Assembly: GCF_963664735.1 (NCBI RefSeq)
Contig: NZ_OY761553.1
Span: 248,001-312,000 of the forward strand
DNA: 64,000 nucleotides
Direction: 5' to 3'
Origin: an uncultured Cohaesibacter sp.
GTDB lineage: Bacteria > Pseudomonadota > Alphaproteobacteria > Rhizobiales > Cohaesibacteraceae
The notes under the pieces were generated by a model that saw only the letters and a program-made list of their open reading frames with translations, was not told where the DNA came from and made no database searches. Positions 53,075-64,000 of the stretch are shown here, piece by piece (within the stretch, counting starts at the first letter, position 1; each line of letters opens with the position of its first letter). The translations under genes were made by a program, and so were the position numbers.

Positions 53075-53424
53075 TGGCCGCTTTGCCGACAAAGGGGCTT
53101 GCCTTGCCGATCAATTGGCTATACATGCTTGAAACATGAACAAGATGTGCACCCAGTTTCAGTCGATTACTTTTGATATATTGGGTATAAAACTTGTTTG
53201 TTTGATTAAAGCTGTTATGAATCAATGAGCTGCAAGTGATTTATATGTCTAGATTATTTGTGTAGGTTTTAATCTACACATTTTATGTGTGATTTCTTTG
53301 ATTCCGTGTGGATACTAAAAAACTAGATTCACTACATTGGCACTCCCTATGTCTCTTCTGGTAGCGCGTATTCTCGGTTCCTGTATCGCCAGTGATGACG
53401 GAGTTTTCAGAAGCGGTTGCCTCA
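53075..53424. other. Intergenic region at the left edge of the accessory island
   Basis: About 350 AT-rich bases with no supported gene. Composition changes here from the housekeeping pattern to the more AT-rich island. Downstream of the Phd-type antitoxin on the reverse strand, no VapC, Doc or YoeB toxin frame can be found, so the expected toxin is absent. Confidence 0.5.
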
Positions 53425-53661
53425 TCATTCCTCAATCCCGAACATGGCTGCCAACTCGGCATCACCATCATGGATACCTTCGCCTATCGAAATACCGGCA
53501 TCCTTGTAGAGGCCCAGCCTGCAAGGATTTGGATTGACTTCGTATTTGATAAGTCGCACGAGCGGCTCACCTGCTTTGGTGATAATCACTTCTTCGCCGG
53601 CAACGCTTCTCTGGACAAGCTCCGAGAGTTTGGCTTTCGCTTCGAGAATATTGACCTGCAT
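53425..53661 (-). CDS. Phd/YefM-type antitoxin
   Basis: The 78-residue protein starts MQVNILEAKAKLSELVQRSVAGEE, the Phd/YefM N-terminal fold that binds DNA, then VIITKAGEPLVRLIKY. The C-terminal part, which in complete systems clasps a toxin, is present. No toxin gene follows on the reverse strand, where it normally would, so the antitoxin is an orphan or has lost its partner. It lies 57 bases after the HigA-like gene on the same strand and is probably in the mrr-higA transcript. Confidence 0.82.
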   Translation of the reverse strand: MQVNILEAKAKLSELVQRSVAGEEVIITKAGEPLVRLIKYEVNPNPCRLGLYKDAGISIGEGIHDGDAELAAMFGIEE

Positions 53662-53718
53662 ATTACACCCCTGATTTTTTCTGTGCTATTTCGCATTCCG
53701 ACAGTGATGACGAACCGG

Positions 53719-54003
53719 TCATTTGATTATATCGCGTCGGTGTTCCAACAATTCATAATCAGATTGCAGCCCGAGGAAGAACCCCTCGGACAGACCAAAG
53801 TAGCGGGCAAATCGTCGATCCATATCTGCAGAAATCTCACGCTTTCCAAGAACGATCTCGTCAACTTGGCTGCAAGGTGCGTGAATAGCCCGTGCAAGAT
53901 CATCCCGGCTCAGGTTCATAGGCTTCAGAAACTCTTCCAGCAGAACTTCACCAGGATGAGGGTTTGGCAAATGATCCGTCGGTCTATTTGATGATTTCGG
54001 CAT
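53719..54003 (-). CDS. HigA/XRE-family regulator
   Basis: From ATG 54003 the protein has 94 residues (six more if ATG 54021 is used). It shows the VapI/HigA signature HPGEVLLEEFLKPMNLSRDDLARAI and a helix-turn-helix region, then EISADMDRRFARYFGLSEGFFLGLQ. HigA antitoxins normally follow a HigB toxin gene; here the gene upstream on the same strand, 44 bases away, is an Mrr-type restriction enzyme. It may act as the controller of that enzyme. No HigB-like frame is visible. Confidence 0.82.
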   Translation of the reverse strand: MPKSSNRPTDHLPNPHPGEVLLEEFLKPMNLSRDDLARAIHAPCSQVDEIVLGKREISADMDRRFARYFGLSEGFFLGLQSDYELLEHRRDIIK

Positions 54004-54047
54004 TGTTCTGTCCTTCTTCAAGTTGGAGAGTATTCAGCTGGCCGGTG

Positions 54048-54980
54048 CTATCCGTCTTCAGAAAAGAAATCTTCGTCCAAGCGTTGAACCTGAATGGTGC
54101 GATAGGCCCGCGTTCCAACACCATGTTCGATCATCAGATCCGCCAAGCGAACTCCGTCAATTTGTATCACACGTTGCTGCAGGCTTCTCGTATACTTCGT
54201 TGCGCTACCAGTGAAAGATGAGGTGGTCACGAAAACACCTTTTGTTGCGCCGAAGCCAACCAGAGAACCAACAAACGCTTGCATGTCCGGTCTTCCGATT
54301 TTATTTGAAGCAGCATGTCGTTTGGCCTGAACATATATGCGATCAAGACCCAGTCGGTCTTCATTAATGACACCGTCAACTCCGCCATCCCCGGATCGCC
54401 CCAATTGTTCAGCAGCGTTTTTATGAGACCCGCCATATCCCATAGCGATGAGAAGGTCTACAATTACCTGCTCAAAGAATGCAGGTGAATTCTCCCGAAT
54501 TCGATCAAGAAGCTCGGTTTGAAGAGCAGTATTAAGGGCTGAAAATGCATCTTCAATCTGCTCTTCTGGGGTTGATGTCTCTTTTGAACTGTCATCGCCA
54601 AATCTTGAACGTGCGGCGACAACATGTCCTTGCTTTTTATTTGAAGCATGGTAAGCGGCAAATTGCGGAATGGATAAAAGGCTTTGATTGTCCAGCTTAT
54701 GCGGATTTGTTGCGAGCAGCTTCTTGCCTGCCTTAGAGGCGATGAAACGCCCTCTTGAAGGACAATCGATCAATCCTGCTTTGTTCATATAGTATTTCGC
54801 CCAATGAACCCGATTTTTGAGAATACTCTGGCGACCGCTGACCAGCATCTTCTCGCGTTCCCCAGCTGATAGCTTAAAATCATCAGCAATTTTCTCAGCA
54901 AGGATCGGAACTTGTTGCTCACCCTGCGCAGCATACCGCAAGACCGGCAGCATCAATGATTGATAGTCTGGAATGGTCAT
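54048..54980 (-). CDS. Mrr-like type IV restriction endonuclease
   Basis: Mrr enzymes cut modified (methylated) foreign DNA. The 310-residue protein has an N-terminal winged-helix domain (about 1-100, Mrr_N-like) and a C-terminal Mrr catalytic domain. The PD-(D/E)XK residues are visible: Glu170 in AFFEQVIVDLL, Asp202 in GDGGVDG and the QAK triad at 218-220 in YVQAKR. The start at 54980 gives a typical N-terminus. The HigA-like gene follows, so they are probably one operon. It is part of a defence-rich island. Confidence 0.9.
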   Translation of the reverse strand: MTIPDYQSLMLPVLRYAAQGEQQVPILAEKIADDFKLSAGEREKMLVSGRQSILKNRVHWAKYYMNKAGLIDCPSRGRFIASKAGKKLLATNPHKLDNQSLLSIPQFAAYHASNKKQGHVVAARSRFGDDSSKETSTPEEQIEDAFSALNTALQTELLDRIRENSPAFFEQVIVDLLIAMGYGGSHKNAAEQLGRSGDGGVDGVINEDRLGLDRIYVQAKRHAASNKIGRPDMQAFVGSLVGFGATKGVFVTTSSFTGSATKYTRSLQQRVIQIDGVRLADLMIEHGVGTRAYRTIQVQRLDEDFFSEDG

Positions 54981-55474
54981 TTTGCTGTCTGTTTATGCTG
55001 TTGTCGTGTTGATATTTTTTTACACGATGGCCCTCTTCGGCCTTGTATGTGAGACCACGATATTCCATCGGATTTTCCGTTAAAGCTAATGCCCGACATT
55101 GCGTCACCTACTCTTCTCAATTCAGGGAAATGGTCACCAAGTATGACTTGGTGACCGGGGAGTTGAGAAGTCGTACCAGGACGACCGCCGCGACCTTTAA
55201 GCCGGAGCTCTGGACATGCGTCGCAGCCTCCCCGACCATAGATCGAGGAGGTGCCAATTCGGTCGACACCGACCGCCTGATATGGAGTTCTCACGCCCCG
55301 AGATGGTGAATATATCGCATCCTGCGAGCAACTTAATATGTCTTGGAAAATTGTGAAAGGGGGAAGATTGATGCGTGAAGAACAACTTGAATACTTAACT
55401 GTCGTCGATGAGTTGTTCTGCCGCGCAATACCTTTCATGCCATGCTGAGGATATGTTGTAATAAATATGGCGCT
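54981..55474. other. Structured non-coding region with a long inverted repeat
   Basis: About 490 bases without a supported gene, although both strands have moderately long open frames (for example 55043-55309 forward, 54977-55438 reverse) that show no known family and cover each other. The dominant feature is the inverted repeat described separately at 55113-55170. It separates the mrr operon from the DUF1778 antitoxin, both reading leftwards. Confidence 0.5.
55113..55170. repeat. Long imperfect inverted repeat (stem-loop)
   Basis: The inner arms GGTCACCAAG (55132-55141) and CTTGGTGACC (55147-55156) are a perfect ten-pair stem with a five-base loop. Outside them, CTTCTCAA (55113-55120) pairs with TTGAGAAG (55163-55170). 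Between the two helices there are 11 and 6 unpaired bases. It is not followed by a T-run. It could be a structured RNA, a recombination site or a protein-binding site. Confidence 0.85.
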
Positions 55475-55783
55475 TCAGTCGGCAAGTGCTACACGGCTAT
55501 GATAGTCATTTGCGGCCTTGATCGCCCTTGCTGTGGGAGGTGGCGGAGTGTCCATTGCCTTTGAAAATGCCACCGCATCCTCTTGAGACATGACATGTTG
55601 AGTGCTGCCTTCCAATATTCTTCGCGCCGCTGAGGCAATTACACTTCTTAAAAACACAGATTTGTTAACACCGAGCCTGCTGGTGGCCTGATCAATCAAA
55701 TTGGCCAGATTCTCGCCATGGCGGATCTGAGTAATACGTGTCTTTTTCTCATCTTCCAGCTCAGTGATATGGAAATCTAGCAT
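55475..55783 (-). CDS. DUF1778/TacA-like antitoxin (toxin missing)
   Basis: The 102-residue protein has an RHH-type N-terminal region (ENLANLIDQATSRLGVNKSVFLRSVI) and the DUF1778 C-terminal element, which in complete TacAT systems neutralises an acetyltransferase toxin. The expected GNAT toxin gene should follow on the reverse strand, but no such frame is present, only the structured repeat region. It is therefore an orphan antitoxin or a remnant. Its start is at ATG 55783. Confidence 0.78.
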   Translation of the reverse strand: MLDFHITELEDEKKTRITQIRHGENLANLIDQATSRLGVNKSVFLRSVIASAARRILEGSTQHVMSQEDAVAFSKAMDTPPPPTARAIKAANDYHSRVALAD

Positions 55784-55931
55784 GATACCCTCTTGTTGAT
55801 TTTAACACCGTACTGCCAATTGCACTCCAATTCCAGAGGCTGCTTTCCTATGTGATCGAAAGCGTTGTCCGCAAGAAGATCCTTCATCGTACAGTTTTGC
55901 AACATTTATCGAATTGAGGAATTCTCTTCAC

Positions 55932-55959
55932 TTGATTTGTAACGTAAGAGTGGTACGAT
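55932..55959 (+). promoter_or_regulatory. Candidate promoter of the recombinase gene
   Basis: TTGATT (55932-55937) and TACGAT (55954-55959) are separated by 16 bases, a sigma70-like arrangement about 40 bases before the recombinase start. It was found by eye and is not proved. Confidence 0.35.
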
Positions 55960-55998
55960 TTAATTCTCACTGAAGGCCCCTTTTACGGACAACATTCC

Positions 55999-56562
55999 AT
56001 GAAAATCGGCTATGCTCGCTGTTCCACTGACAAACAAGACCTGATCGTCCAAAAAACGGCTCTAATAGATCTCGGTGTCAAAGAAGAGAACATTCATATG
56101 GATCATGGTTTGACCGGTACCAACAGAGACCGCCCCGGTCTCGAAAAAGCCCTTGCAGCATCCCGAGAAGGCGACACCTTTATTGTTTCAAAGCTGGATC
56201 GGTTGGCTCGGTCCGTTCCCGATGCTCGTTTGATCGCTGATCAGTTGGAAAGCAAGGGTGTAAAATTGGCCTTGGGACAGTCCATCTATGATCCAGCAGA
56301 CCCAATGGGCAAGATGTTCTTCAATATTCTGGCCACCTTTGCCGAATTCGAGGCAGACTTGATCCGAATGCGAACGAGAGAAGGCATGGCAATTGCCAAG
56401 GCAAAAGGTAAGCTGCGCGGGAAACAGCCAAAGCTATCCCCGAAACAACAGAATGAACTCAAACGGATGCATGAGACAGGGGATCACTCTATCAGCGACT
56501 TGGCCGAAATCTTCGCAGTCTCACGACCGACCGTTTACAGGACATTGAACAGAGTCAGGTGA
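55999..56562 (+). CDS. Serine recombinase (resolvase/invertase family)
   Basis: The 187-residue protein has the catalytic N-terminal domain starting MKIGYARCSTDKQDL with Ser9 as nucleophile, conserved arginines in SKLDRLARSVPDA, and a C-terminal helix-turn-helix (ISDLAEIFAVSRPTVYRTLNRV) typical of resolvases and DNA invertases. The normal length is about 185-200. It may be the remnant or active part of a transposon or an inversion system; no res site is recognised. It stands at the centre of the accessory island, just before the NTPase-nuclease gene. Confidence 0.93.
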   Translation: MKIGYARCSTDKQDLIVQKTALIDLGVKEENIHMDHGLTGTNRDRPGLEKALAASREGDTFIVSKLDRLARSVPDARLIADQLESKGVKLALGQSIYDPADPMGKMFFNILATFAEFEADLIRMRTREGMAIAKAKGKLRGKQPKLSPKQQNELKRMHETGDHSISDLAEIFAVSRPTVYRTLNRVR

Positions 56563-56914
56563 TGACCAACTCAGAACTTCCTCACGGAAGACTTGCTCAT
56601 AGGTCGCAATAGACAACACTCGTGCATTTGCGCAGTCCCACAGGCAAGGTGAATTGGCAAAACGGGCGGGAAGCCGACATTTGCCGCAGACGTGAGATCT
56701 TATACCGCGCAGGATAAAGGGGCCATTCGAGGGTTCGCTAAGCTCGTCCTGGCCATCGCAGCCCGTTTGGACGAATGGGTGGTTCGTCTGACATCCTATT
56801 AAGACGCAGGAAAGCTGGATGAAGGTGGCGAATTTCAGTCTATTCGTTGAAATAAGACGTTGAAACATCCTTGCGAACAATGGCAGAGGTTGTAATAATC
56901 AATATTATTTTCCC
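56563..56914. other. Intergenic region before the NTPase-nuclease gene
   Basis: About 350 bases with no supported forward gene. A reverse frame (56521-56880, 119 codons) overlaps the recombinase antisense and has no motif I know, so it is not called. The AT-rich stretch at 56890-56912 just before the start codon may hold a promoter; there is no good ribosome binding site before the ATG. Confidence 0.45.
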
Positions 56915-57379
56915 ATGAGCGATTCATATATTCCAAGAACACTGATTGTCGGCGAGAACAGCTACAGTGAGGAGCAGTTACTCCTTACGGGCTCGCTTTT
57001 TGTTGTGCTGGCAGAACCCGGTGCCGGGAAAACCGAACTTCTTTCACGGTTTGGCCAGCTATTAAATGTCAAACCGATAAGGGCGAGTGTCTTCCGAAAT
57101 AGGATGATTAGGGAAGAACCTTGGGCTCTCGTGATCGATGCCATGGACGAAGTGGCGCGTGTAGACCCACTGGGTATCGAAGATATTATCGTAAAAGCCA
57201 GTGAACTTGGTGCTGACATAGTCATTTTTGCTGGCCGCTCCAGCGAGTGGGATACAGCTGAAACCGAGCATGTAAAAAGCTACTTCGGAACTGAACCTAT
57301 CATCGTGAATTTGTCAGCGTTCACAACATCAGAACAACGCCAGCTTTTTGCCGCGAGTTTTCCAATTGAAAATTTTTGA
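56915..57379 (+). CDS. NACHT/STAND-like NTPase, N-terminal part (before a frame change)
   Basis: This 154-residue frame has a complete P-loop: Walker A AEPGAGKTEL (Lys39), Walker B LVIDAMDEV (72-80) with the double acidic pattern of NACHT/AAA domains, and VIFAGRSSEW at 104-112, the sensor strand with an arginine. It ends at a UGA immediately after a run of As and Ts, and the protein is clearly unfinished, since the rest of the NTPase fold follows in the +1 frame. Removing one T at 57373-57377 restores a single frame of about 1388 codons to 61082. No start codon exists near the beginning of the second part, so the two must be one gene. Confidence 0.85.
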   Translation: MSDSYIPRTLIVGENSYSEEQLLLTGSLFVVLAEPGAGKTELLSRFGQLLNVKPIRASVFRNRMIREEPWALVIDAMDEVARVDPLGIEDIIVKASELGADIVIFAGRSSEWDTAETEHVKSYFGTEPIIVNLSAFTTSEQRQLFAASFPIENF

Positions 57380-60300
57380 TGCATTTGTTGCCGAATGCGC
57401 ACGCTTCGAACTGGATGCCCTTTTAGGAAACCCTCAGTTCCTAATTTTGTTCGGCGAAGCTTTTGTCGAAAGCGGTCAGCATTTTGTTTCAAAGAAGAAG
57501 ATATATTTCGACGCCGTGCGCCGATTGGCGCATGAAGCAAACCTACATTTGCAACGTTCGGCCCGCCCACCCAATGCTAGAATCGTGGAGATAGCATGTG
57601 AGGTCTTTGCTAAGCTAATGCTTTCGGGGAGTGCCGGCATCAGTGCTAGCGAGAAGCTTTTTGCGTTTGAATACCCATATCTTCAATCGCTCGTTGCAAC
57701 TGAAGCTCAAAACGCTCACTATCTCACTGATACCCGTCTTTTAAAGCCTTCTGCGGATCCTGGATTGCACGAACCAACTCATCGCATTGTCGCTGAGTAC
57801 TGCGCAGCCAAGTACCTCATCAGCAGGATCGACAACCCAGCAGACCGGCTATCCTTGTCTCGTGTGCTCGCTATTGTCGCACCTAAAGGAGTGGTTCGAA
57901 CCGAATTGAGAGGGATGCTCGGTTGGATGGCGGCCCTTTCACTGGAAGCCGTGCAGCGTCAATTGATTGAACTTGATCCCTATGCTGTGATCGCAAACGG
58001 TGACCCATCTGAATTTACGACAAGCTCTAAAAAGGCTTTGCTAAAGGCCCTCAACCAGCTCGCGGAGGCCAACCCGCTTTTCCGGCGGAGTGATGCATGG
58101 CGACATTTTAATGTGGGCGCATTTTTTACTGCCGACATAAAAGACGATATCAGGGAGTTGTTGTCTCCTGCCCCAACAAAGCGTCCGCTCCAGGACTTAG
58201 TTCTCGAGCTCTTGGCGTCTTCTCACGCCGCCGATCAGTTTTCGGTTGAGTTGCGTAGGCTTGCTCTGGACATATCCCCAAGTCGTGATGTTCGAGTAGC
58301 TGCATATTCTCTGTTACTACAGGAAACTCAGTTTGATCCGCGTCCAGATCTACCAGTGCTGCTCTCAGAAAACTCACAATCCTCGCTAGAACTCGGAGCC
58401 ACGGCAGTCCGCTTGTTTGGCTCAGCAGAATTCGAGGCTTCGATTGTGGTCGATCTGCTTCGAAATTTATCCGAACTTTACCCGAAGAAGCGTGATATTC
58501 GGGTTCGAGATCGAGGCTCTCGTTACTTCATCAGGATGCTGGTTAATTCACTAGACCAAGAAATCACGGTTCTGGCGCTGAACCAACTGACAGCGGGCCT
58601 GGCTTGTAGTTGCAATTCAATGCACGAGTTTCAATGCACGTGTCGCGTAGGGATCAGTAAGATAGTCGGCCTCCTCCTTGATCACCATCTGCCGGCAGTG
58701 AGCAATCCCGGCTCTGAGCAAATTTGGCAATGGACGCGAGCCCTCGTCTTTAAGAACCAACGCTCTAAAGATTTCAGTCCTGCGGTAAGGTTCTTGTTCG
58801 AAAATTCAGAGCTACGGCAAGAGGTGCAGCGGTTGGCCGTCCTGAATTCGCCCAGCGGAAAAGTGCAAAAGGCAATCAATCGTTTCTTTCATGCCGATAT
58901 ACATTCAGGTATCCAATTCTACGCGGGCGATTTGATCTCGCTAGTCGAATATGCCTTTAAAGCAGGGGCAATCGATGTTTGGTCTGCCCTTTGGGTCGGG
59001 CACAACATTCACGATGAGAAAAGCCATTCAAATCCGCAAAGAACTCTGATGAGGAGGCAAGCCAACAGCGATGTTCGCTTCCTGCGGGTTTGGTCTAAAC
59101 TTGACAGATTAGCCAAGAGAAACGATCAGGAACAGGGCTTTCGGTATCGGTCGCGGCGGAAGAAATATGAGCGCCGTGAGGCCGAGGCTGTTGAACATAA
59201 TCGGACGCATCTAATCAAGAATCGGGCGCAAATTGAGGCTGGGAGGCATTGGGGATGGCTAGAGATATTTGCTAACCAATACTTATTCGAGCCAGAAAAG
59301 TTAAATAGTCCTGATTATGGCGATACACCGCAGCGGGCATTGCGCAATTGCATACCGTTTCTTAGATCTCATGTTCCGACCTTAAGAGATCTCGCAAACC
59401 GAAAAGGAAACCACATTGCTGAAGTGCTTTTTGCGCACTGCTTGGTTCGCTTTCGTGCGCAAGAGGGCTTCCATGATTTAGAAATAGAAATACTTCGCGC
59501 TGCGATGACAGAAACCGTATCCTATCCGGCCATCAAAAACGAGGAAGAGCTAGAAGCAATCCAGGCGGAATTGTATTCTCTGGTGTTTTCAGAGCCCGGT
59601 TCGGTGCTGAAGTTTGCGCGTGAATTTATCGAGCCTCCGCTGGCGTCCAAAATCGATACCACAACAAACGTGTATTGGCTGGAGCACTATGAAATTTTTC
59701 ATGAACTGCGAGAGACGCTGCCCATCGAATGGCTGTGTCGTTACCCGGAAATGCCAATGAGTGCCCAAGACAGCCTGTTTAAAATGGCAGCAAAGCATGG
59801 GGATAGGAAACAACTTAAGTCGTTGATAGACGAGGGGTTCGGCAAACCGACACTAATTGTGGATAACAATAGTCCTGAATGTGAGCTCAGCGAGCGTCGC
59901 CACCGGTTTTGGGCACTTAACGCGTTTTTCTTCTCTACCAATCGGCGCAGTGAAGCTATTGCCGAGTTACGGCAGGACCCTAACTCGATTCTTGCTATTG
60001 CTCACCGTGCAGATCGGTTTCGTTGGCACGACGACGACTGCACTCCTTCGCTTTCTGCAGAAGCTATCTTCGACATACTGGACGCTTTCGTCGAAGCTTG
60101 GCCCAAAGTCCACTTACCGAGCAGCTACGGCTCTGGCGACCCTGACAACGAGACTGCTTATCGGTTTCTGCGTGACGTTGTCTGGCGCATAGGGGCAGAT
60201 ACCCCGTCCCGAAAGCTTCCCATACTTAATCGGCTTCTCCAAGATGAACGTTTTAAAGATTTTATAGATGCCTTGTTGAGCTTGCGTGCTGATGCGGTGC

Positions 60301-61082
60301 GGGAGGTGGCTCTAGCTGACTTTAAGCCGCCCTCACCGCAGAGTGTCTCCGAGTTTCTGGACTGTAAAATGGTTGCCAGTGTTGAAGACCTGCGAGCGCT
60401 CGTGGTTGAGGTGCTGAATGATGTTCAGGTCAATTTGAAAGGTCTAGATACTGATCCATTGGATGCCTTTTACGATGGGGGAGAGCACGTAAATGAAAAT
60501 ACCGCTCGGAATCGCGTCGTTGATATGATCCGTGCCCGGCTTACGGCGCTCGGGATTCCTGTCGTGATCGAACACCACATGGCAAAAAGCAATAGGGCAG
60601 ACTTCACAGCCTCCGCTTCCGTATCGGGCTCCAATCCCCTACTTGTTGTGGAGGCCAAGGGGCAGTGGCATGCGGAGCTATTTACTGCCGCAGCAGCACA
60701 ACTGAGTGAGCGCTACTCCATTCACCCCGATGCGTCGGGCCAAGGTGTCTATCTGGTCTTCTGGTTTGGCAATGGCGAGACGGTTGCAGGGAAGGTGGAT
60801 GTAACGATTGCAACTGCCTCGGAGTTGAGAGACGCCATTCTTAAAAAGATGCCGGAAGGCCTGCAAAAGTCGATTGACGTTGTAGTGCTCGATTTGTTTC
60901 GTCCGAAGCCTGCGCCAGAACCTACCAAGGGTAAAACAGCTCGAAAGTCCCGTAAAAAAAACCGACGGGAACTTCCTCAACCCTTTCGGCAAAGGGCGTT
61001 AATCGCATTTAGGAACCGAACTTCGTCAGTTTTTGAGATGACATGTGCTATTGGATTGCCCCAATGTAGCGCTTTAACTTGA
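57348..61082 (+). CDS. NACHT/STAND-like NTPase with C-terminal PD-(D/E)XK nuclease, main part
   Basis: This is the 1234-residue continuation of the NTPase gene from about 57378; the frame itself is open from 57348, but the first in-frame ATG is far inside, at about codon 91. The first 150 residues complete the NTPase module, with EPTHRIVAEYCAAKYL, a motif seen at the end of NACHT and AAA winged-helix regions. Then follow about 850 residues of mostly helical sequence that look like a repeat sensor, with CxC-x(n)-CxC cysteines in the CSCNSMHEFQCTC stretch (about 425). The C-terminus has a PD-(D/E)XK nuclease pattern: NRVVDMIRARLTALG, Asp1085 in RADF, and Glu1102-x-Lys1104 in VVEAKG. A basic lysine- and arginine-rich tail ends it. 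Confidence 0.8.
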   Translation: MPRVFQLKIFDAFVAECARFELDALLGNPQFLILFGEAFVESGQHFVSKKKIYFDAVRRLAHEANLHLQRSARPPNARIVEIACEVFAKLMLSGSAGISASEKLFAFEYPYLQSLVATEAQNAHYLTDTRLLKPSADPGLHEPTHRIVAEYCAAKYLISRIDNPADRLSLSRVLAIVAPKGVVRTELRGMLGWMAALSLEAVQRQLIELDPYAVIANGDPSEFTTSSKKALLKALNQLAEANPLFRRSDAWRHFNVGAFFTADIKDDIRELLSPAPTKRPLQDLVLELLASSHAADQFSVELRRLALDISPSRDVRVAAYSLLLQETQFDPRPDLPVLLSENSQSSLELGATAVRLFGSAEFEASIVVDLLRNLSELYPKKRDIRVRDRGSRYFIRMLVNSLDQEITVLALNQLTAGLACSCNSMHEFQCTCRVGISKIVGLLLDHHLPAVSNPGSEQIWQWTRALVFKNQRSKDFSPAVRFLFENSELRQEVQRLAVLNSPSGKVQKAINRFFHADIHSGIQFYAGDLISLVEYAFKAGAIDVWSALWVGHNIHDEKSHSNPQRTLMRRQANSDVRFLRVWSKLDRLAKRNDQEQGFRYRSRRKKYERREAEAVEHNRTHLIKNRAQIEAGRHWGWLEIFANQYLFEPEKLNSPDYGDTPQRALRNCIPFLRSHVPTLRDLANRKGNHIAEVLFAHCLVRFRAQEGFHDLEIEILRAAMTETVSYPAIKNEEELEAIQAELYSLVFSEPGSVLKFAREFIEPPLASKIDTTTNVYWLEHYEIFHELRETLPIEWLCRYPEMPMSAQDSLFKMAAKHGDRKQLKSLIDEGFGKPTLIVDNNSPECELSERRHRFWALNAFFFSTNRRSEAIAELRQDPNSILAIAHRADRFRWHDDDCTPSLSAEAIFDILDAFVEAWPKVHLPSSYGSGDPDNETAYRFLRDVVWRIGADTPSRKLPILNRLLQDERFKDFIDALLSLRADAVREVALADFKPPSPQSVSEFLDCKMVASVEDLRALVVEVLNDVQVNLKGLDTDPLDAFYDGGEHVNENTARNRVVDMIRARLTALGIPVVIEHHMAKSNRADFTASASVSGSNPLLVVEAKGQWHAELFTAAAAQLSERYSIHPDASGQGVYLVFWFGNGETVAGKVDVTIATASELRDAILKKMPEGLQKSIDVVVLDLFRPKPAPEPTKGKTARKSRKKNRRELPQPFRQRALIAFRNRTSSVFEMTCAIGLPQCSALT

Positions 61083-61104
61083 ACAATGCTGGCAGCATTT
61101 TGGG

Positions 61105-62466
61105 CTAAATCGTGAATTGCTCCGCGTCGGCGACTGAGACTGTAAGACTGACATCGAAGATGTTGGCATCGGAAAATTTATAGAAGCGCACGGAGAGCCG
61201 GTATTCATCAACCTGAACGAGGCAATTCTTATGCGCAGCAAGAGCATTGGCGATTTCAGCAGGAAGATCCCCCAATTCCGCTGCCGTGGCAGCCAGCTCC
61301 TCAGCTGCCGCAATAAAAAGTTCCATCGCTTCTACTGGGGAAGGGTCAAGTTGAAAGTGTCCTTCCAGCTTGCAGACCTTCACTACATCGGATGTACCCT
61401 TAATTCGATAGGCTAGGTACTTTCGCGGAAAGGTGTTGTCTATGCTTTTGTTCTGGGATTCTGCTAACCACAGTTCAGGCACACACGTGCGATGATAGTC
61501 GTTTGTGCGTAAATCAAAATTCGTCAAAAACAGTTCAGCCGCGTAGGGACTCCAACCATCCTGTTTAGCAATAGGCGGTGGGTTTTTGCGCTGAAGTTCA
61601 TAAAATTTGAGCTCGGTAACAATGGTGCAAATATCATCAAGGCTTTCAATGGCCACTTCCTTAAATTGCCGAACGGCGCGCTCCAAGAGTTGAGGTCGAA
61701 GGAAAAACGGCAAAAAGAAAATCTTCTTGGCTGCCGCTTTGAGGTGGTCGGATTTGGGATTTCCAATCTCTAGACGAATCGCTAGAGATTCCCATTTCGC
61801 ATAACAATGCCCTAAATAAAAGGCTGGCAGTGAAAGAGTGCTAAGCAGAATTGGTAAGAGAACTGTGCGCAGAGTTTGTGAAGAGAACAACTCGCCCTTT
61901 GTTTCAATGGACGTAGCAATGAAGTGCCAAGTAATTAAAAGGAAGAACAAGGAAAGCACCCATTCGCAGACTCGCTCTGCAGGTGCCCATTCTTCTTTAG
62001 TCCCGGCCATAGCGTGCAAAATCGAGATTGATGCGACAATGGGTAGCAAAATCAGCTCCGCCCACAGGGCAAAAGAATAGGCCACCACGATAAATTCAAA
62101 AGCGGCCAGAACCGTAAATTGGTCTTTGACAATATCCCAGAAAAAGGCAGCTCCTCGTTCATGGCGGATTGCGCCGCCAAGCAAGGCCAGTCCGGAGAAT
62201 ATAGTCCAGAGCATTGTGTCTTTGAGCTCAAAAAGCGTCCAAAGCCCCGTTCGGTTCAGTACCAAGACAACACCAACAATCCATAACGCGTAAGAACAAA
62301 ATAGGAGAACTAATCGCTTGGCAAGCATGGCCTTTACAACACTTATAAGCGCTCCTCGAATACCGGTATTCTTGCGAAATCCCACCGCCATGGCCAAAAC
62401 TACAATGCCTCCCCAAATTGCAAGTGCTATCTCACGATTTGAAAAATAGGTGGTAATCCAGTTCAT
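61105..62466 (-). CDS. Multi-pass membrane protein of unknown family
   Basis: The 453-residue protein has an N-terminal membrane part with about seven or eight hydrophobic segments (residues 10-225), then a cytoplasmic or extracytoplasmic domain of about 225 residues with no motif I recognise. It converges with the NTPase-nuclease gene, with 22 bases between the stops, and shares the composition of the island. Its closeness suggests a partner of that gene or a separate defence or envelope protein, but there is no direct evidence of a link. It starts at ATG 62466. Confidence 0.6.
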   Translation of the reverse strand: MNWITTYFSNREIALAIWGGIVVLAMAVGFRKNTGIRGALISVVKAMLAKRLVLLFCSYALWIVGVVLVLNRTGLWTLFELKDTMLWTIFSGLALLGGAIRHERGAAFFWDIVKDQFTVLAAFEFIVVAYSFALWAELILLPIVASISILHAMAGTKEEWAPAERVCEWVLSLFFLLITWHFIATSIETKGELFSSQTLRTVLLPILLSTLSLPAFYLGHCYAKWESLAIRLEIGNPKSDHLKAAAKKIFFLPFFLRPQLLERAVRQFKEVAIESLDDICTIVTELKFYELQRKNPPPIAKQDGWSPYAAELFLTNFDLRTNDYHRTCVPELWLAESQNKSIDNTFPRKYLAYRIKGTSDVVKVCKLEGHFQLDPSPVEAMELFIAAAEELAATAAELGDLPAEIANALAAHKNCLVQVDEYRLSVRFYKFSDANIFDVSLTVSVADAEQFTI

Positions 62467-62752
62467 GCGCGGATCCTCATGGTTTTGCTGCGAGAAGATT
62501 CCACAATAGCGCGTGCCGGTTTAGTTTCCGGACCTAAAGCCTAAAAATGAGGGTATTTCCACTATCGGTTTTGTTGTGCAAAAAAAATCGTGGGTCTACT
62601 GATCAGTAACTAACTTTTTGAGAAATGCCGCACTTCGTTCGAATGACTGCAATGGGGAAGTTGTCTACCGGCAAATGCCAACTGGCGAGCGGCGGCTTTG
62701 GGCCGTTTGCCCCGAGACAAAAATTGAAAATCGTCGCAGCGTTTCTACTTGA
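62467..62752. other. Intergenic region at the right edge of the accessory island
   Basis: About 286 bases with no supported gene. The upstream part should carry the promoter of the reverse membrane-protein gene. A poly-A stretch (62580-62588) and a GC-rich part near 62690 are the main visible features. No repeat matching the left edge was found by eye. Confidence 0.4.
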
Positions 62753-63640
62753 CTAGGATATTTGCCGCTTAGGCATTTCCTCAACAGCCAATTCTACGAA
62801 GCGTTTCACGAAGTGGAGATCGTTCTTGTCTTCTGGTGAAACAAGAAATGTTGGATATGTCTGGGAAAGCTCTTCGATGGGACGAGAGGTAATTTGTTGG
62901 GAAGGAAAGAAACAGTTCTCCAGCATGATGCCTACGCCAATTCCATGCAGGATTGCTTCTTTGACGACCGGATAGGTGGTCATTTCAACCACCCTGGTCA
63001 AGGAAAGCTTGTGTGTCAGCAATTGCTCGTTGACGACCCGCTGGGTCATGGAGCCGACTTCCGGCAAGACGACAGCTTCATGGACCAGATCACTCAGCGA
63101 TAATCTTTCTCTTTTTGCAAGAGGATGATCGTAACGCATATGCGCGCAGAAGCGTTGGTGTTCAAGCTCTAGGGAATATAGGCCGGGCAGTTGGGTCGGT
63201 TCCGTCACGATGGCAATGTCTACATCCCTATTCTTCAGGCGCTCCATTGCCAGCGTCCAGCTGCCTAGCGAGAAAGTGGTTTTCACATCAGGGTAAAGCT
63301 GGCTGAAGCGAGCGATGATGGGGAGCGCGGGTCTTGGGGCATTGGCCATAATGGAGAGATAGCCGGACTTCAGGTCCCTATAGTCTTCGATTTTCTCTCC
63401 GATCGCCTGTTCCAAGGTACAAAGGCGATCTGACAGGCGAAAAAGCTCTTCCGCCGCCCTTGTCACTTCTAAGCCTTCTCGCCGACGTATGAACAATTTC
63501 GACCCCATAGTCCGTTCCAGATTGGCCACATGCTGTGTGATCGCGGACTGCGTCACGCCGAGTGCGTTGGCCGCTTGTGAGAAGCTTTTCAGCCTTGCCG
63601 TGTATGTGAAGGCTTCGATCTGATGTGCGCTGATTTTCAT
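62753..63640 (-). CDS. LysR-family transcriptional regulator
   Basis: The 295-residue protein has the LysR N-terminal helix-turn-helix (ARLKSFSQAANALGVTQSAITQHVANLE, given in part: SFSQAANALGVTQSAI) and a C-terminal two-lobed effector domain (about 90-290). It is divergent from the ABC-transporter ATPase gene at 63797, the usual arrangement of a LysR gene and its target. The effector is unknown; a sugar or amine imported by the adjacent transporter is a fair guess. Confidence 0.9.
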   Translation of the reverse strand: MKISAHQIEAFTYTARLKSFSQAANALGVTQSAITQHVANLERTMGSKLFIRRREGLEVTRAAEELFRLSDRLCTLEQAIGEKIEDYRDLKSGYLSIMANAPRPALPIIARFSQLYPDVKTTFSLGSWTLAMERLKNRDVDIAIVTEPTQLPGLYSLELEHQRFCAHMRYDHPLAKRERLSLSDLVHEAVVLPEVGSMTQRVVNEQLLTHKLSLTRVVEMTTYPVVKEAILHGIGVGIMLENCFFPSQQITSRPIEELSQTYPTFLVSPEDKNDLHFVKRFVELAVEEMPKRQIS

Positions 63641-63687
63641 GGGGGGCTCTCAGGCTATTTCGCAGGCATTTTGATCATTTGCTTACA

Positions 63688-63700
63688 ACTAAGGTTTAGT
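63688..63700. promoter_or_regulatory. Inverted repeat in the LysR-ABC intergenic region
   Basis: ACTAA (63688-63692) and TTAGT (63696-63700) are separated by three bases in the 156-base divergent region. A second palindrome TGACGTCA lies at 63721-63728. One of them may be the LysR box; this is inferred from position. Confidence 0.4.
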
Positions 63701-63796
63701 CCCCATTAGCTACGCTTATATGACGTCACCTGTGTGTCAATTCGGATTGGTAAACGACAATTCATCCGGACAAATGACACGATAGGGCGCAAGGGT

Positions 63797-64000
63797 ATGG
63801 CTAGACTCTCTCTCAACGAAATCAAAAAGGAATTCGGGGAAACCAAAGTCCTGAAAGGTGTCTCACTGGACATTCAAGATGGGGAATTCATTTCTCTTGT
63901 AGGGCCTTCCGGCTGCGGCAAGTCTACTCTGCTGCGGATCATTGCCGGGCTGGAACTGCAAACCTCAGGCGATATTCTGATTGATGGTACCAACGTTAAT
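63797..64000 (+). CDS. ABC transporter ATP-binding protein (3' partial)
   Basis: The first 68 residues of an ABC ATPase are visible; the gene runs off the window. It has Walker [10 protein letters not shown] at residues 36-44 and the segment [15 protein letters not shown] behind it, both typical of MsmK/UgpC/PotA-type importer ATPases of the CUT1 or Opp-like branch. The start follows AAGGG directly. It diverges from the LysR gene, which probably controls it. The substrate cannot be read from this part. Confidence 0.88.

Follow-up and report, generated by a model that had tools for sequence, protein, structure and literature searches.

A probable recent loss-of-function indel in an island-borne EruA gene of an uncultured Cohaesibacter species

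The gene considered here lies in a 64,000-nucleotide stretch of an uncultured Cohaesibacter sp. genome (contig NZ_OY761553.1, positions 248,001 to 312,000; referred to below as the window) and is by descent a member of EruA (NF058535), a NACHT-type family whose designation as antiphage is the NCBI family name. The gene is divided over two reading frames, and the probable cause is a recent chance insertion or deletion (indel) that broke this island-borne EruA near its start. A single small length change of the replication-slippage type, within the A4T5 run (57369-57377) or adjoining it, would have put the downstream part into the +1 frame, and translation would then end at a UGA after 154 residues, inside the nucleoside triphosphatase (NTPase) region, leaving a truncated product that is presumably inactive. 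The change would lie in the DNA itself, with at most a little full-length protein arising by a spontaneous +1 slip of the UUU-decoding tRNA at the UGA, and would have happened too recently for clear decay to show in the 1,234 codons that remain. The two open reading frames (ORF1 and ORF2) and the landmarks of the gene are:

56915..57379, + strand: N-terminal piece of EruA (NCBIfam NF058535), ORF1, from ATG 56915 to TGA 57377-57379, 154 amino acids (aa)
57371..57379, + strand: break point AAT TTT TGA, with AAT at 57371-57373 and TTT at 57374-57376, then TGA
57348..61082, + strand: C-terminal piece of EruA, ORF2, in the +1 frame; opens at TTG 57348, homologous from 57378
60600..60701, + strand: putative PD-(D/E)xK nuclease signature, with D at 60600-60602, E-x-K at 60651-60659 and Q at 60699-60701
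60954..60961, + strand: A8 run just behind the conserved protein end; the tail after the run is unlike that of the Devosia copy

Identity and relatives of the broken gene

The initial annotation had both the coordinates and the codon counts right: ORF1 stops at the TGA given above, and the +1 frame, counted from GAT at 57378, holds 1,234 further open codons up to 61079, followed by a stop at 61080-61082. At the break, five T's (57373-57377) stand directly behind four A's (57369-57372), and the base after the TGA is a T (TGAT). The stop after residue 154 spares the P-loop EPGAGKT (57014-57034) and the LVIDAMDE strand (57128-57151), which we take to be the Walker A and Walker B motifs, respectively; the rest of the protein is lost. 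At the far end of the gene, the tail (60954-61082) is without a clear counterpart in the Devosia copy, and its present frame may or may not be the original one.

The N-terminal piece matches NF058535 at profile positions 12-156 (124.1 bits, E 5.9e-36) and the C-terminal piece at positions 156-1317 out of 1318 (1047.9 bits, the cut-off being 1000). Because both pieces match the one profile and meet at position 156, and because intact relatives hold both matches in a single frame, profile comparison identifies them as one protein of this known family. A long ORF arising by chance was considered and rejected, given that the homology spans the whole length and that the pieces join at one profile position. 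The continuous frame typical of the family, kept by 89 of 95 comparable relatives, is interrupted in the window gene at 57377; the gene is thus a broken member by descent, which does not imply a working EruA. No paper on an antiphage EruA was found under the names EruA and HyoA and their short forms.

Domain searches of the window itself gave little, Pfam returning weak P-loop matches to the N-terminal piece and none to the C-terminal piece, and PADLOC likewise weak matches to the former and none to the latter. Among the relatives, NACHT (Pfam) is found at E ≤0.01 in the N-terminal parts of 24 out of 31. This supports the NTPase assigned by the initial annotation, although NACHT is weak in the window piece (E 0.046) and the Devosia copy shows no Pfam match in its N-terminal part. 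The nuclease assigned at the same time is consistent with the D, E-x-K and Q residues, which are invariant in the C-terminal parts of 35 aligned sequences, the window included, and whose arrangement we take to be the pattern of PD-(D/E)xK nucleases. On the other hand, no nuclease family of Pfam matched, and searches against solved structures returned P-loop proteins and KaiC alone, with weak scores, and no nuclease. The C terminus is accordingly described here as a putative nuclease.

Single-sequence scans of genome and viral contigs gave no relative, but alignment-based scans did: 110 relatives were found in genome contigs, of which the best 80 were kept, and six viral contigs carry EruA relatives as well. 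The closest among the best 80 of 110 is that of Devosia riboflavina (72% identity, 1,374 aa), which is continuous and reads AGC TTC GAT straight through the junction, without a UUU slip codon. The family profile exceeds its cut-off in 12 of 397 genomes of the order, the window genome counted. Within the genus (18 genomes searched), G003 is the only genome besides that of the window with a strong match (888.8 bits, below the cut-off of 1000); the match in G015 is weak (113.6 bits, positions 133-1261), and those in G001 and G004 are short and weak. Wider searches gave matches in 11/385 genomes of the class, 15/396 of a re-centred order set and 27/398 of the phylum (the window genome included in the class and phylum counts). 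None of the three held a copy closer than 44% besides those already found, the matches of the re-centred order search being the known ones. A search of plasmid DNA gave one short match, and one of plasmid proteins gave 31 records, all below 60% identity, three of which cover at least 80% of the query. In the window genome, the family search finds the two pieces alone and no second, intact EruA.

Of 109 loci with a match, the 95 holding both anchors were compared and the 14 lacking one were set aside, a copy being counted as intact when one frame without a stop connects its anchors. These 95 are not all independent, as in some cases two collections apparently contribute the same species (L019 and L060, for example). 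Intact copies number 89 and broken ones six, none of them broken at the window junction. Three of the six change frame: L056 near residue 94 of the N part, with the junction itself read in a single frame; L117 near residue 230 of the C part; and L132 near residue 755 of the C part, with a long insertion. The other three (L073, L103 and L021) carry a single in-frame stop each, at 28, 63 and 95% of the stretch. A further locus, L131, which lacks one anchor and stands outside the 95, also shows a frame change inside its C part. Broken copies are thus not rare in EruA, and the six in 95 support the loss of the window gene by ordinary mutation, although some of them may be assembly errors.

The junction codon is TTC in 50 and TTT in 38 of 101 relatives. 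Five relatives (L089, L091, L093, L121 and L124) carry a run of five or six T's here without leaving the frame, and are intact. The comparison of T-run length in close relatives, which the initial annotation had proposed as a check, could be carried out at 72% identity at the closest, where Devosia riboflavina has TTC GAT in frame.

Age of the break and reliability of the assembly

Relative to the Devosia copy, changes fall mostly in third codon positions in both pieces (28/23/80 at positions 1/2/3 in the N part and 261/155/600 in the C part). The ratio of non-synonymous to synonymous substitution rates (dN/dS) is 0.07 for the N part and 0.11 for the C part, with dS near saturation (2.3 and 1.7). 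Judged by these sequence comparisons, both pieces have been under constraint in the past. Sites conserved in at least six of seven outgroups have changed in the window only versus in Devosia only at 1 v 1 positions in the N part and 8 v 3 in the C part; the latter, a small difference, leans towards relaxation. In columns with at least 95% conservation among the other relatives, the window departs at 1/20 (N) and 8/112 (C), as does Devosia; eight lies near the top of the range, and most relatives show 0-6 departures in the C part.

No new stop has arisen in the 1,234 downstream codons. About 140 stops are expected in the C frame per unit of neutral divergence, that is, three after 0.021 substitutions per site, and since none is found, the break is either recent, or not real, or compensated. 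If it is both real and uncompensated, its age would be below about 0.02 neutral substitutions per site.

The alternative that the break is not real, in which the A4T5 run was wrongly called or assembled and conceals a continuous and active gene, is the main rival, though unlikely. In its favour, the break sits in a homopolymer, with no clear decay behind it. In addition, a 2013 survey treats single frameshifts confirmed by homology as errors or recent indels, and expects errors rather than true indels (PMC3711429). This alternative was addressed by comparing 800 kilobases (kb) of the window genome (G000) with 800 kb each of two genomes of the same genus, G002 and G003, using a codon-position filter. 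Against G002, 442 conserved genes with 157,231 codons and 1,226 homopolymers of at least five bases gave 8 flags; against G003, 430 genes with 154,370 codons and 1,205 homopolymers also gave 8.

These 16 flags reduce to 11 separate places. The joined ends of the contig are one of them, and a stretch ahead of the rpsL start, inspected base by base, is another; both of these appear in each list. Six are frame changes with one side lacking a third-position pattern (one common to the two lists, three flagged against G002 alone and two against G003 alone); four of the six fall in the first 60 codons, and all are taken as ORF extensions or shadow frames. The remaining three are in-frame stops and not indels, two of them shared by the lists and one flagged against G003 alone. 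Judged on codon-position counts, and base by base for rpsL, no flagged conserved gene contained a convincing internal indel frameshift. Zero accepted cases set a 95% bound of about 3 per 1,226 runs, equivalent to about 0.04 errors in the 16 A/T runs of at least five bases in the EruA gene.

An assembly error nevertheless gains something from this control. Raw flags are more numerous with the window genome as subject (8/442 and 8/430) than with the same script and the subjects swapped (3/464 for G002 and 0/450 for G003); G002 and G003 against each other gave 3/464 and 4/466. Furthermore, the assembly may be imperfect at the joined ends of contig C1 of G000 (L236 start, L237 end): a gene that G002 and G003 both conserve shifts its frame there, about 10 bases or less from the join, and these ends may not abut exactly. 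Two other places are recorded as observations in their own right. At L177:10674-11372 (C1:610674-611372), an in-frame stop occurs at about residue 122 of 239 in a gene that is open in G002 and G003, and at about position 9759 of L254, in G002, a frame change with a coding pattern on both sides interrupts a gene continuous in G000 and G003. Because broken EruA copies (6/95) are somewhat commoner than the error bound, a real mutation is favoured but not proven, as some of the six may be errors too.

Several points weigh against a recent loss of function. Judged on the assembled sequence, an error at this one run could still account for the break; neither a second isolate nor a copy closer than 72% was found. 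The missing decay is predicted equally well by a recoded gene or by an error, and the five intact relatives with five or six T's show that the run alone forces no break. Finally, the loss may be incomplete, some +1 slipping being expected where UUU precedes UGA. Taken together, of the three explanations left open by the initial annotation, recent loss of function is favoured, the control genes lower the likelihood of a base-calling error, and a programmed +1 frameshift is unsupported, none of the 95 relatives sharing the break and the nearest lacking the slip codon.

Frameshifting and other explanations

A programmed or selected +1 shift of the prfB kind, in which the P-site UUU would re-pair after moving one base, with UGA standing in the A site, so that a defence protein is kept low or tied to the levels of release factor 2 (RF2), is improbable. 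Its requirements can be judged against the prfB of the same genome (L159:1437-1509, C1), which has a textbook site (AGGAGG CAT CTT TGA C) and serves as an internal control; a classic +1 site in the organism's own prfB is also a point in favour of such a shift. The likeness drawn by the initial annotation stands as regards the slip-prone UUU ahead of an in-frame UGA (TTT TGA), and the past constraint on both pieces would agree with a recoded gene. It does not extend to the Shine-Dalgarno (SD)-like element, to the C after UGA or to conservation. Pairing with the 16S tail, for which we assumed the tail sequence, amounts to -2.5 kcal/mol upstream of the EruA site, compared to -12.1 kcal/mol for prfB. 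Pairing at least as strong occurs at 57% of the 435 TTTTGA sites counted on a single strand over 800 kb of this genome, for which the upstream window lay one base further 3'. Pairing energy thus bears out the earlier statement that no SD-like element precedes the break. The base after UGA is T instead of the C of prfB (TGAC), and the RNA near the site folds in no unusual way (z -1.0, -0.7 and -0.2).

A 2025 survey places the prfB frameshift motif in about half of alphaproteobacterial genomes and lists 21 genomes in which TTTTTGA replaces CTTTGA in prfB, a precedent for the sequence at the EruA break, but in these 21 genes the SD-like element and its spacing are reportedly kept (PMC12421855). 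The 2013 survey requires a conserved site within a cluster for a shift to be called programmed (PMC3711429). Judged by the two surveys, the EruA site, with neither an SD-like element nor conservation, fails as a programmed shift.

A related proposal, that the break is a newborn +1 recoding site, combines a chance indel with translational rescue. A few per cent of ribosomes would still make full-length EruA, and low, RF2-sensitive expression of a costly defence nuclease would be tolerated or even favoured. We consider this improbable as an account of the present gene, though precedents for its elements exist. A chance +1 site in Escherichia coli rpoB reaches 5% (PMC7022156), a figure that would also speak for a selected shift, and compensatory frameshifting of problem indels is known, mostly from mitochondria, according to a review (PMC5009743). 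Searches by term gave no paper joining frameshifting with phage defence. If the proposal held, the gene would be a natural example of a programmed frameshift starting from an indel.

Phase variation, in which reversible slippage at the tract toggles the defence gene, has the homopolymer at the break in its favour and is very improbable. Phase-variable tracts are usually longer than five T's, and the five relatives named above hold five or six T's in frame.

Least credible of all is a pair of separate proteins, with ORF2 using its own start and pairing with ORF1: although ORF2 is open from TTG 57348, overlaps ORF1, and need not be marked by a ribosome-binding element, which the ORF1 start lacks too (+2.6 kcal/mol), pairing is weak before the candidate starts at 57348 (0.2 kcal/mol) and 57366 (-2.5 kcal/mol), the first ATG, at 57618 (-6.8 kcal/mol), would cut conserved sequence, and none of the 95 relatives is split at this junction. 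Translational coupling was likewise tried and rejected, as the stop-overlapping ATG at 57379 lies in the third frame and pairing before the nearby ORF2 starts is weak.

Genomic setting and known systems

The EruA gene is carried by a mobile island inserted downstream of clpA and absent at this place from two genomes of the same genus. Among plasmid records, the DNA nearest to this clpA is that of Shinella and Sinorhizobium (72%), which suggests an alphaproteobacterium, probably one of the Rhizobiales. Conserved sequence ends at 53169 and resumes at C1:325596, and in G002 and G003 the flanks meet with a 4-base overlap. The island and its annotated genes upstream of EruA are:

53170..64000, continuing to L163:5595 (C1:301170-325595), no strand: 24.4-kb island carrying EruA
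53719-54021 and 55475-55783, - strand: HigA-like and TacA-like antitoxin genes
54048..54980, - strand: Mrr-type restriction endonuclease gene with intact ORF (Pfam PF04471, 4.6e-33; PADLOC mREase_IV, 1.2e-105)
55999..56562, + strand: serine resolvase gene upstream of EruA (Pfam PF00239, 4.5e-38)

The Mrr-type gene is the second defence-type gene of the island. No toxin family was detected in the scanned ORFs beside the two antitoxin genes. Further genes encode ABC transporters and a RecD-like helicase, and the far end holds a tyrosine recombinase gene (L163:4141-5493) together with two long genes without a Pfam match at 1e-5. Two 20-kb stretches covering the island yielded no tRNA gene. Islands of this kind are known for frequent gain and loss of genes, and a freshly broken defence gene fits such a setting for that reason.

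As an ordinary broken gene, the window copy is of small import, adding one more to the six of 95 already seen in the family. Its use lies rather in the warning that TTTTTGA by itself does not make a prfB-type site, and in showing that the prfB site of the same genome is a yardstick for judging claims of this sort. Suppression of the break at a useful level, if established, would make the gene a natural testing ground for the view that programmed frameshifts start out as tolerated indels, and a case of translational dosing of a phage-defence protein.

Compared to the EruA family model, the window gene agrees in that both pieces match and the C-terminal piece alone exceeds the curated cut-off, and differs in being split at position 156, intact relatives having one frame, mostly of 1,318-1,439 codons from stop to stop. 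Part of the C-terminal piece also matches HyoA (NCBIfam NF058534), but weakly, its 79.8 bits being far under the cut-off of 1200 bits. With the prfB frameshift of RF2 the break shares a slip codon that stands right before UGA and has a U as its next base, which makes +1 re-pairing possible, and differs from it in lacking an internal SD-like element, a C after UGA and conservation of the site. The intrinsic +1 suppression in E. coli rpoB resembles it in that a codon prone to slipping and a slow codon in the A site adjoin a chance frame change and can allow some full-length protein to be made. There, the site is CCC-AGG, the gene, an essential one, is under direct selection, and 5% is reached; here, it is UUU-UGA in a presumably dispensable gene (PMC7022156).

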